Source: Pigoraptor vietnamica (lineage: Eukaryota > Opisthokonta > Filasterea). Taken from it: a stretch of DNA of 37,691 nt. The stretch covers positions 1 through 37,691 of the forward strand of contig CALSCQ010002543.1 of assembly GCA_943704525.1 (NCBI GenBank), given 5' to 3'. Under the pieces are notes generated by a model that was given only the letters and a program-made list of their open reading frames with translations, had not been told where the DNA came from and did no database searches. The position numbers and the translations under genes were made by a program. How positions within the stretch are numbered: the stretch's first letter is position 1; every line of letters begins with the position of its first letter. Positions 10,187-17,198 of this stretch are shown in pieces.

Positions 10187-11372
10187 ATGGTGACGGTGGG
10201 TTTGCGACCAAAACTGCCCCCTGTGTTCGAACGTGCGCGTCTCGTGTGTGTGTCCCCTAGCCGGCGTGCTCACTCGCGCACTCGCTGTCCAGCAACACGA
10301 CGGTTACCCGCGCAGCCCCCTGCGAGACATTGGCTCGCTCTTCAACGCGGGTCAACACAGCGTCACTGTGAAGCACGCCTTTCGCGCCACGCATGTCGAC
10401 GACAGCGTGCATCCCGTCCCCGCGCATGTCATGAAGCGGGACCTCTTCCTTCCCGCCGCCCGCAGCCCCGCCAGGCCCAATCTGCCGACAGACGATGCGG
10501 CGTCATCCAAAGGCACGGTCGAAATCATCGTTCACGGCTCGGTTGAGGACCACTTTGCGCGCGCCCTCATTGAGCACGAGAAGACGAAGGCCCGGAGGCG
10601 CTCGTCCATTGTGAGTGGGCCGGTTGTAACAGCGTGTCATTGACTCTGCCCACACACCAGACGCAATTTCATAACAGCATCTTCTTTGCGTCTTGCATTC
10701 CTCTCCTTCTCTCTCCGCGTCCCCCTGTCCATTTCTTTGCGTGTTTGTGGTGCAGTACTCACCTGCGTGCTACTGGCCGCGCAGGGCGGTCTCGGTGCCA
10801 TTGACGACTCGTTCAGGCCTGCGGGCATCATCAAGAAGCGGCGAGGTGGGCTTTGGAACAGTCGCCTGCAAACGGAGTGTCGTGCTTTTCTCTGCTTCCC
10901 CCTGTGTGTTGCCATTAGTGGGCGTCTCGGTGTGTGTGCCCGCTCGCTGTTCCCCTGCGCTCTCTGGTCTGTCCCCATTAAAACGCGCCCGTCTTGTTTG
11001 TCTGCAGCGAGCGAGACGACGCCCATTGCCAAGCTCCCCCTCCGCGAGCGCAAGCTTCCGGCGTCCTTCTGGGACCCCGCGCGCCGCTCCACGTCCCCCA
11101 TGTCGCAAGTGCCCGACCTCGCCCGGTCCCACGCCGTGCGCCGCCTGGACAACGACTCGCTCTCGACGTCCGAGTGCAGCGACGCGTCTTCGCAGGACTG
11201 CGCGGGCCTTTTGGGTGACTTTGCCGACATGCGCTGCCTTGGCTTTGAGGGATGCGACATGCTCGACGCGGCGGGCGTCGCTTTGCCGTCGGTGCCACTC
11301 TGCCTCCCGCAGGATCTCCCCGCGCTCAGCCTCGACGACCTGCTCACGTTTGATTGTGCGATCGACCTGTGA
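10187..11372 (+). CDS. TEAD-cofactor-like protein: Vestigial-type TDU motif plus YAP-type omega-loop motif
   Basis: Exons 10187-10195, 10293-10610, 10785-10845 and 11008-11372 join in phase to give about 250 residues. Residues 78-95 contain a beta-strand-like TVEIIVHG followed by SVEDHFARAL, nearly the TDU helix of VGLL4 (SVDDHFAKAL). Residues 141-153 contain LRERKLPASFWDP, which matches the YAP omega-loop (LRKLPDSFFKPP). In animals these two elements bind separate faces of the TEAD/Scalloped transcription factor. A weaker IDDSF sequence lies at 115-119. The C-terminal part is acidic and ends PALSLDDLLTF, like an activation segment. No WW domain and no HxRxxS LATS site is visible. It is likely a nuclear TEAD cofactor. 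The 9-base first exon (Met-Val-Thr) is the least certain part; the motifs sit in well-supported exons. Confidence 0.72.
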
Positions 11373-14379: not shown

Positions 14380-16134
14380 TCAGGACGAGGGATTCGCACG
14401 CCGACGCGCCGCCAGCAAGCTGTCTACCGACCAAATCTGACCCGGTCGCCCCTGACTGCCCGACTGAGCGGTCTCAGCCGGCGACGGCGTACTTCCGCCG
14501 GCAGCTGAAAGTTCTGCCGCATGCGGTACCGCAGCAGTGTGGTCTTCGGCGCGACCTTGGGGAGGCGGAGACCTTGTCGCGCCGTGCGCGGGCCACTCGC
14601 CAGCACCAGCGCCGCCGTGGGCCGAGGGATACGAAGCAGGCCGCTGCCACGGGAACGGCTGGCCGGGATCTGAGGCCGCAGCCGGCCACCCGTGACCGGC
14701 CGACTGGTAGCTGCCGGCGTCAAATCCGGGGCGCGCGCCGCCTGGCGGGTAATAAAAGCCGGCGCCGGGCTGAGGATATGCGAACGACTGCGACGCGTAC
14801 GGCGGATGCTTCGATGACCCCTGCGACGCGGCAGATGCGTTGTGGCGGGCGGCCGCAGCCGTCACGCTGCCAATCCAGCCGAAGGGCGGGCGCGAGTAGT
14901 CGAGGGGACCTCCCTGGGCGCCACTGCTCGGGGACGAGCTCACGTGCGTCGCCGGCATAGCGTAAGGGCCGGCTGGCCAATCGCCGCGCGGCGCGGGAGC
15001 GGCGGACGGAGGCATGCCAACTCGGGGGTCCATCGGCGAAGTGGCGCCATACCACGCAGGAAGATAGGCCGAGGGGTGATCGCCGGGAAGCACGCGGTCG
15101 CCGCCTGGCCGGGCTGCAAAGTAGCCGGGGTAGTGGTGGAATCCCATGTACGGCGCTCCCTGCGATGGTACCAGTTGTGGGGGAGCAAAACCCCCGTGAT
15201 CCCCTGGATGGGCAACGTCAACGCCAGCCTGCAGCCGCACGCCGGCGTCGGAATTCTTGGCCGTCTGCGCGTGTTTGGTGCCCGCTTTTGACGACGGCTT
15301 CGATGTCGCGCTCGCGTCCGCCGTCGGCTTGCGCGCCTTGTTGTACTTCCAGTCCGGGTGCGCCTTTCGGTGCGCCGTCTTGATGCGCAGCGCCATATCG
15401 AGGTACTTCTGTCGCTCGCCGTCGGGCAGCTCCGACCACATGTCGCCGAGCATCCGCGAGATCATCTTGTTGTCGTGTTCGGGATGTTGCTCGCGGAGCG
15501 TCCCCCGCATGCTTGTGCTGAAAATCATGAACGCGTTCATGGGTCGCTTGATGTGCGTTTTCTTCGATTGCCGCGGGCACACGCTCTCCACGAGTGCCTG
15601 GAACATCTTCTCCGCATCCCCGTTGTCCGACGACGCCTTGCTCGCCGCCCCGACTGTCGGCACAGATCCCTCACGGTCCACTCCATCTTGAGAGGCAATC
15701 GCTGCGCCACTGACAGCGACTTCGCCCGCGCGCGACGCCGAGTCACTCGCGTCGACGCCGGCTACTCCGGCCGGCGTGCCGGTCGCCGTTGACGCCGATT
15801 CGCTCGAGTCAGCCATGTCGCTCACTCCGCGCAGTGGCCCGCCGAAATCGCCGTCAACCGACGCTGCGTCAACGCGGTCGGGCGCGACCATACTGCAACG
15901 CCCCGGCGGAGACGCAGGCGGGCCGACCCGCAATGTCTCGCTGCTGCTGCGGGGCGAGAGCGACTCGTCCGCGGCCTGCGCAAGCAAGGCAAGGGCGGAG
16001 CAGCCAACGAAAGAGTCGTCGCGATGCTCTTGCACGAAGTGCGGCGCCTCGCGGCTCAGGCGCAGAGAAGGTGTTTGTCGGTTGTAGTGCTGGTCTTGGA
16101 CAGTCGATCGGGTAGCAGCAAGCACGGCGGCCAT
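14380..16134 (-). CDS. HMG-box transcription factor, Capicua/BBX-like box
   Basis: A single exon encodes 584 residues. The HMG box lies at about 192-268 and contains HIKRPMNAFMIFS, DNKMISRMLGDMW, ERQKYLDMA and KAHPDWKYNKARK. The nearest sequences I can recall are Capicua (HIRRPMNAFMIFS, DNRTVSKILGEWW, KEKQKYHDLA, KAHPDWKW) and then BBX and SOX boxes. This box binds the DNA minor groove sequence-specifically and bends it. The flanks are long, low-complexity Ser/Ala/Gly/Pro-rich regions with many PPYA/GAPYM-like and Tyr-Pro pairs. The conserved-looking C-terminal tail is IWSVDSLLAARRR. The ATG at 16134 has a good context (GGCATGGCC). Orthology to Capicua is not proven: no other Capicua element was recognised. 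The absence of introns is unusual here. Confidence 0.85.
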   Translation of the reverse strand: MAAVLAATRSTVQDQHYNRQTPSLRLSREAPHFVQEHRDDSFVGCSALALLAQAADESLSPRSSSETLRVGPPASPPGRCSMVAPDRVDAASVDGDFGGPLRGVSDMADSSESASTATGTPAGVAGVDASDSASRAGEVAVSGAAIASQDGVDREGSVPTVGAASKASSDNGDAEKMFQALVESVCPRQSKKTHIKRPMNAFMIFSTSMRGTLREQHPEHDNKMISRMLGDMWSELPDGERQKYLDMALRIKTAHRKAHPDWKYNKARKPTADASATSKPSSKAGTKHAQTAKNSDAGVRLQAGVDVAHPGDHGGFAPPQLVPSQGAPYMGFHHYPGYFAARPGGDRVLPGDHPSAYLPAWYGATSPMDPRVGMPPSAAPAPRGDWPAGPYAMPATHVSSSPSSGAQGGPLDYSRPPFGWIGSVTAAAARHNASAASQGSSKHPPYASQSFAYPQPGAGFYYPPGGARPGFDAGSYQSAGHGWPAAASDPGQPFPWQRPASYPSAHGGAGAGEWPAHGATRSPPPQGRAEDHTAAVPHAAELSAAGGSTPSPAETAQSGSQGRPGQIWSVDSLLAARRRANPSS

Positions 16135-17198
16135 GCCTGATCCAGTTAGCAGCTGGCGCGGACCGACATTTGCAGAAGATGCTGTTTGATGGTCGGCGAC
16201 GACAATGGGTATGTCACAACGTAGTAGTCACCGGAAGCGCGGGCGCGTTGATAATCAATTTGCGACGAAGTCCGTCTGGTAACGGCGCCACGGCGGGTGA
16301 TATGCGGCAAAGAGGTCACCGCACAGTCAACCGAACGTTCTCAACCTCTATGACAACTGAGATGCGAATGCTATTAACGCAGATGACGAAGGGTGCCGAA
16401 GAGGGTCGCACGAAAAAGAACGCGGGATGCCTTCCTCGCACTGCGCACAAAACGGAGAAGAGAAGGGCCCAGCAACGCTGAATGGGAGGCATCACAGTAC
16501 TGCGGCCCCTCCCGCCTGACACACTGTGCTCCATTTGAAGCCTGTTTGAATGAAATCTGACACGTGAGATCGGTGTGACAGCGACGGCGTTGGCTTCGGG
16601 CCCTGTTTATTTTCAAATTTCCCGGAATTATTTCTCATAGACGATTCATACATTGCCTTCTATTCTTAAAATTATTACGCGACATACACCGCTCGTGGGT
16701 GCTCAGTCACATTGATCTCACATTGAGGTCACAAACCACGCTATACATTGGTGACTGGAAAATGGACCGCCATGTCACCGCACGTGCGATCCAAACCCTC
16801 GTTCCGCTTGACCCTGCACGCACGCAATTTCAAACCCCGTCTCCCACATCTTGGCTCCCATCGTGGTGAATGATTTGACGTCGCGTGAAAAAGAGCCGAT
16901 TTTTTGTCGTTTTATCAAAGATGGCAATAACCGCCGAGGACAGGTGTCGCATTGATGGCACGTGCACTCGTTCGTCATAATAAACTCGGCATCAAACGCT
17001 CGCGACAAAGGCTCAATTATGTGAGAAATGTCGGAGAGAACGCGCCGAAATCGCACACCCATCCCGCTCAAGGCGTGACTGCTCGCGTGAGCCCGCACAT
17101 CGGTTCCACAGCCGCCCGCCCTCGTCAAATGCCCGTCAGTGGTGACGGCTAATTACAATCACAGTACACCAGTCAATACAGGCCCCGGCGACCGTCCG
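16135..17198. other. Long gap between HMG-box gene and C15orf61 homologue
   Basis: About 1.06 kb with no supported gene. The part next to 16134 should hold the HMG-box gene promoter. An AT-rich stretch lies at about 16605-16680. A 117-codon open frame on the minus strand at 16775-17128 resembles no family I know and was not called. Confidence 0.5.

Follow-up and report, generated by a model that had tools for sequence, protein, structure and literature searches.

A probable Vestigial-like TEAD coactivator with a TONDU-type helix and an omega-loop in the filasterean Pigoraptor vietnamica

The gene at positions 10187–11372 on the forward strand of the window (the whole 37,691-nucleotide stretch of P. 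vietnamica DNA analysed here) encodes a 250-residue protein, probably a nuclear and largely disordered coactivator of TEAD that is built like Vestigial/VGLL2. From its sequence the product very probably binds TEAD, and with somewhat lower confidence it should activate rather than repress. The original prediction of a premetazoan host holds, since P. vietnamica is a filasterean and therefore a holozoan relative of animals. The window constitutes an entire contig of an assembly of 32.5 Mb in 1395 contigs. Pigoraptor cultures were fed on the prey Parabodo, as stated in the available text of PMC9492541; the contig is taken to come from the same organism as the TEAD genes described below, on the basis of the common assembly and of a homologue in Pigoraptor chileana.

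The four exons (Table 1) give an intact frame of 250 aa after splicing, and the three introns of 97, 174 and 162 nt all have GT-AG borders, so the original prediction of a 250-residue protein with three introns is borne out, with both motifs at the predicted residues. The alignment with the P. chileana homologue includes both termini, which supports the first exon of three codons. There are 17 CATTCC/GGAATG TEAD sites in the window, with none in the approximately 650 bp upstream of the gene and one in intron 2 (position 10696). On the minus strand of the window, positions 14380–16227 encode an HMG-box protein that matches capicua in PDB (E 5e-24) ahead of SRY (3.2e-17) and SOX-9 (1.1e-16), and this would be a capicua/SOX-type HMG box in a filasterean. 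Exons on the same strand at about 2.9–9.5 kb resemble, judged by eye from the reading frames, a receptor kinase whose outer region is like a periplasmic binding protein and whose kinase domain is of the TKL type.

Table 1. Exons and sequence features of the putative TEAD cofactor gene (positions in the window).
Feature	Position	Strand	Basis
Exon 1 (M-V-T)	10187..10195	+	Start backed by P. chileana homologue, MVVQHEG vs MVTQHDG
Exon 2, residues 4–109	10293..10610	+	Splice model; GT-AG borders
Strand-like TVEIIVHG, residues 78–85, presumed TEAD interface 1	10515..10538	+	Aligns with VGLL4 VSITG preceding the helix
TONDU-type helix SVEDHFARAL, residues 86–95, presumed TEAD interface 2	10539..10568	+	Pattern and PDB profile matches
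Exon 3, residues 110–129 and first base of 130	10785..10845	+	Splice model
NLS-like IIKKRR, residues 124–129, inside conserved FRPAGIIKKRR; putative function	10827..10844	+	Identical in both homologues
Exon 4, remainder of codon 130, residues 131–250 and stop	11008..11372	+	Splice model
Ser131 of KKRRASE, conserved basophilic RRxS site; putative phosphorylation	11010..11012	+	Both homologues
Omega-loop LRERKLPASFWDP, residues 141–153, presumed TEAD interface 3	11040..11078	+	Pfam omega-loop HMM, PDB profile
Acidic-hydrophobic C-terminus LPSVPLC..DLPALSLDDLLTFDCAIDL, residues 222–250, presumed activation domain	11283..11369	+	Conservation

The strand-like segment and the helix at residues 86–95 were found in the spliced protein where they had been predicted, and a strand followed by a VxxHFxxAL helix, which is the TONDU criterion of the Vg/VGLL family, is thus present at the level of sequence. 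When the TONDU core was written as the DNA pattern V-[DE]-[DE]-H-F-x-x-A-[LF], two matches were obtained in the 32.5-Mb genome with both strands counted, one of them in the window, and none with the backward control. The other match, VEEHFLNAL on contig C246, is followed by a stop about 40 residues on, has no omega-loop within 2.5 kb and is taken as chance. Shuffling the cofactor protein 200,000 times produced the TONDU core once and the omega core 12 times. The cut-out TONDU pieces both gave VGLL4 as the best match in PDB (E 0.0064 and 0.0069), the closest TONDU there being VGLL4 TDU2 (GSVDDHFAKAL), and the TONDU piece alone also matched two aldehyde dehydrogenases (E 0.72 and 0.8). The Pfam family Vg_Tdu (PF07545) has a cut-off of 27 bits, and the scores lie below it, with 12.4 bits for a cut-out 35-aa peptide of the window protein, and 15.5 bits at full length and 19.5 bits as a peptide for the P. 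chileana homologue. The family was not reported in the Pfam scans of the full-length window protein or of an 86-aa piece, and a Vg_Tdu scan of the P. vietnamica genome gave no candidates. With scores below the cut-off, formal membership of the VGLL family is not established.

The omega-loop LRERKLPASFWDP is likewise present in the spliced protein at residues 141–153, as predicted. It stands C-terminal of the TONDU motif, an arrangement that by the criterion given in the available text of PMC7566471 is found in Vg and VGLL2 only. Arg144 and Ser149 are located at the positions of YAP Arg89 and Ser94, and Leu141-Leu146-Phe150-Trp151 at those of YAP Met86-Leu91-Phe95-Phe96, so that YAP Met86 is replaced by Leu. 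Against the Pfam omega-loop family TEADIR3 (PF15238, cut-off 26 bits) the scores are 23.5 bits for the full-length protein (E 6.1e-5), 24.9 for the 86-aa piece, 26.1 for the exon and 27.3 for a 28-aa peptide. Six matches were obtained in a TEADIR3 scan of the genome and two of them exceed the cut-off, namely the cofactor gene (26.1 bits, as an exon) and a locus on contig C215 (32.8 bits). The same scan of 14 control genomes gave matches at E ≤ 10 in seven, and above the cut-off in none. A loose omega-loop DNA pattern is not significant on its own, with 58 matches in the genome and 66 in the control, and was therefore left out of the evidence.

The locus on contig C215 (L018, 1231–2160) encodes a second omega-loop protein, GIPMRHRQLPKSFFSEP, with 30–33 bits on TEADIR3, above the cut-off. 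Pfam scans of two of its exon pieces showed no further family, and it is a candidate FAM181-like protein with an omega-loop only. A bHLH transcription factor (HLH 37.9 bits) is encoded at about 36.3–38 kb of contig C111 (L015/L082), and an omega-loop-like stretch in its N-terminal region, LDQLRNLPESFFMLAP, scores 14–17 bits on TEADIR3, below the cut-off. A direct bHLH-TEAD link is possible there.

When some 5.8 billion proteins were searched, 1482 candidates included one match at E ≤ 10, namely P0001 from EukProt Opistho-2, with 273 aa and an E-value of 6.7e-59, which we infer from the record name to be transcript-derived. According to the accessible parts of PMC7147346 and PMC9492541, Opistho-2 is P. 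chileana and Opistho-1 is P. vietnamica. The two proteins are 56% identical in an end-to-end alignment (50% by BLASTP), and both motifs are kept in the relative, as expected if the prediction was right, along with the NLS-like block and the acidic C-terminus. In block 118–153, which contains the omega-loop, 29 of 36 residues are identical between the two species, and in the C-terminus 24 of 29 (residues 222–250); these last 29 residues are net acidic. The strand-helix region 78–98 has 13 of 21 identical residues and is less conserved than the N-terminal block 1–23 (16/23), and lower identities are found in segments 24–76 (18/53), 99–117 (6/19) and 154–195 (18/42). The homologues share two more conserved blocks, an N-terminal MVxQHxGxPRSPxRD (residues 1–23) and HVMKRDxF (48–55). 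A search of the P. vietnamica genome with the window protein gave strong matches to the window itself only, and two weak matches on contigs C912 (E 0.196) and C1157 (E 0.618) were rejected, neither locus having either motif. P. chileana was discarded as the source of the genome, because the window protein finds itself there while its Opistho-2 homologue is 50% identical by BLASTP.

A profile of the two homologues was compared with 177,635 distinct PDB sequences and gave three matches at E ≤ 10, all of them TEAD-bound cofactor peptides: the FAM181A omega-loop (0.063), the VGLL4 TONDU (0.94) and Drosophila Vestigial (2.1), the last with TONDU and omega-loop both aligned and in the correct order. 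Individually these matches are weak, but jointly they are telling. The window protein alone matched an unrelated phosphoprotein (E 1.2) beside FAM181A, and since single-query searches also return unrelated proteins they are unconvincing by themselves.

It is possible, if somewhat doubtful, that filastereans evolved the two short linear motifs on their own to suit a conserved TEAD surface, giving a protein that works like Vestigial without common descent with VGLL. Such an origin would agree with the two protein-database searches, both of limited sensitivity, in which P. chileana was the only match (one of 1482 and one of 19 candidates) and no animal VGLL was returned, so that the homologues come from two species of one genus. 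The search with the P0001 region had no animal VGLL among its 19 candidates and is therefore no evidence of absence. The omega-only protein on contig C215 also points in this direction, as omega-loops thus occur in more than one protein of the genome. Against separate origins stand the strand-helix-omega order and the consensus of both motifs, which fit Vg/VGLL2 in the PDB profile and in what is available of PMC7566471, and a premetazoan origin of TONDU, which is claimed in the accessible text of PMC12922143 with a citation of Koontz 2013.

The original prediction depended on a TEA-domain gene in the same organism, and four TEA-domain matches in two genes were found. TEAD-A, on contig C145, combines a TEA domain with a full YAP-binding domain, which matched in PDB TEAD4 (E 1.4e-61) and the Scalloped protein of the Vg:Sd crystal (4.1e-57). 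The query model still included one intron, adding 21 residues, and misplaced one linker border; its best stretch, 232–411, is located beyond that intron, and the last two exons rest on a by-eye model and similarity. Among the 120 proteins listed (3358 at E ≤ 1e-10, 8000 scored) the best match of TEAD-A is EukProt Opistho-1_new, which is identical in the shared exons (88% by BLASTP with the intron-retaining model). The differences are confined to the retained intron, the linker border and a later intron into which the Opistho-1 record reads through, and that read-through stretch is the genome's own sequence. An amoebozoan origin of the genome was rejected on this agreement. By a hand count along the alignment, TEAD-A keeps TEAD4 Glu263, Asp272, Lys297, Trp299, Ser336, Val389 and Tyr429, all of which are listed, some of them under Scalloped numbering, as hot spots or points of cofactor contact in the portions available of PMC7566471 and PMC10146773. 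The second gene, TEAD-B on contig C1165 (L011, 1330–3215), is diverged and has a TEA domain, and several of its binding-pocket residues seem changed by eye.

With such a partner, TEAD interfaces 1 and 2 would be taken by the strand and TONDU helix (78–95). Interface 3 would be taken by the omega-loop (141–153), connected to the helix by a flexible 45-residue linker. Covering interfaces 1–3, the cofactor would thus be a competitor of Yorkie for this TEAD, and its conserved acidic-hydrophobic C-terminus would bring in the transcription machinery. A KKRRxSE site adjoins the omega-loop on its N-terminal side and is kept in both homologues, which makes regulation by a basophilic kinase possible, and phosphorylation there could tune binding. 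We infer the disorder of the protein, the competition with Yorkie and the kinase control.

Alternatively, the protein could act as a corepressor in the manner of VGLL4/Tgi, binding TEAD and holding Yorkie off while its acidic tail recruits repressors or nothing. VGLL4 TDU2 is the nearest TONDU in PDB, and VGLL4/Tgi antagonises Yorkie-Scalloped in what is accessible of PMC12922143. We regard repression of this kind as unlikely, given that the cofactor has one TONDU core and not two, has an omega-loop that VGLL4 lacks (PMC10146773, available parts), and has a strongly conserved acidic-hydrophobic C-terminus. Chance resemblance in an unrelated nuclear protein without TEAD contact is very improbable: the motifs are short and the PDB E-values weak, with some unrelated proteins beside the TEAD cofactors, but both rare motifs occur in one protein and are kept together in a second species, and all three PDB matches of the two-sequence profile are TEAD cofactors.

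A Yorkie gene is also located in the genome (contig C1268, minus strand, L081), with two WW matches, one complete and the other partial, and four HxRxxS sites, HSREAS, HRRQLS, HFRSAS and HSRKLS. No canonical omega-loop was found there by pattern in the surrounding 6.2 kb, in a Pfam scan of the N-terminal exon or in the TEADIR3 genome scan; an exon further upstream may have been missed. In the cofactor, the original prediction of no WW domains and no LATS-type HxRxxS site agrees with the scans, as neither homologue has a WW match in Pfam or an HxRxxS site, and PPxY is also absent from both; the genome's 41 listed WW matches all lie on contigs other than that of the window. Freedom of the cofactor from Hippo control, as first suggested, is at most putative. 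The idea of a Yorkie paralogue that has lost its WW domains, to which the omega-loop common to the cofactor and YAP and the presence of a Yorkie gene would lend themselves, is hardly credible beside a helix of the TONDU type (VxxHF) rather than the YAP type, and the absence of PPxY, HxRxxS and WW.

Vestigial is a selector-type TEAD partner, known in animals for its role in the identity of wing and muscle. If a filasterean has the same two-handed grip, this architecture would date from before animals, and a Vestigial-like TEAD switch may be older than animals. A premetazoan TONDU is itself not new, being stated in the accessible text of PMC12922143. What looks new is a WW-free, probably activating cofactor of Vg/VGLL2 architecture in a unicellular holozoan that also has Yorkie. 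Among the titles and opening lines of abstracts listed from open-licence papers, none dealt with a protein of unicellular holozoans that joins TONDU and omega-loop. The available portions of two Capsaspora Hippo papers contain no mention of vestigial or VGLL (PMC10959527) and of vestigial or the word cofactor (PMC9170242), VGLL and vestigial are likewise absent from those of a paper on Hippo in Hydra (PMC8526868), and those of PMC7147346 do not mention Hippo, Yorkie or TEAD.

The proposal, in the text available of PMC7566471, that the ancestral VGLL had an omega-loop would be carried far back in time by a filasterean cofactor. A view relayed in PMC12922143 (accessible text) takes the short TONDU of the VGLL4 type as the ancestral unit. 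The cofactor, with its VGLL4-like TONDU, fits this view, but a single TONDU joined to an omega-loop lies outside it. A tentative and rather doubtful extension is that a strand-TONDU-omega-activation-domain protein was the ancestral holozoan TEAD cofactor, with VGLL4 (TONDU only), FAM181 (omega only) and VGLL1/3 as reduced descendants, and that in Pigoraptor the present cofactor, beyond the reach of LATS, would be the chief activator binding TEAD with high affinity, Yorkie being without a canonical omega-loop in the 6.2 kb examined. Whether Yorkie and Vestigial-like inputs already competed for TEAD before multicellularity becomes concretely testable with the cofactor, and Capsaspora, of the same clade, can be gene-edited (PMC9170242, available part).

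Compared with the animal cofactors, VGLL4/Tgi is nearest in TONDU sequence, is mostly described as a repressor without interface 3 (PMC12922143; PMC10146773, in the text available), and has two TONDU motifs against one in the cofactor, which adds an omega-loop and an acidic C-terminus. FAM181A/B (Pfam TEADIR3) has a similar omega-loop (VPMRKRQLPASFW versus LPLRERKLPASFW) and, unlike the cofactor, no helix element (PMC10146773, accessible parts). YAP/TAZ/Yorkie have the three-interface TEAD grip that is presumed for the cofactor, which differs by the absence of WW domains and HxRxxS and by a TONDU rather than YAP-type helix. In the original prediction the two elements were described as best known, in animals, from separate cofactors, and this needs correction, as Drosophila Vg and human VGLL2 carry both, and a crystal structure of Vg:Sd exists (PMC7566471, available text). 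A three-part TEAD contact is made by YAP, Vg and VGLL2 (PMC7566471; PMC10146773, in the parts available). TONDU alone has an affinity of hundreds of nanomolar, and the omega-loop region strengthens Vg binding 190-fold (PMC7566471, same portion). The cofactor differs from Vg/VGLL2 in coming from a unicellular holozoan, in having no further similarity detectable in the searches made, in a Vg_Tdu score below the cut-off, in LPASFW in place of FPPSFW in the omega-loop, and in a linker of 45 residues against 12 in Vg and 27 in VGLL2, where it costs affinity (PMC7566471, available text). Like Vg/VGLL2, it has strand, TONDU helix with VxxHF and then omega-loop in one protein, and the Arg, Ser and Phe-Trp of the Vg omega-loop are also present, so there is a good probability that it works like Vestigial/VGLL2, with a two-handed TEAD grip that, by analogy, would resemble those of Vg:Sd and YAP:TEAD.
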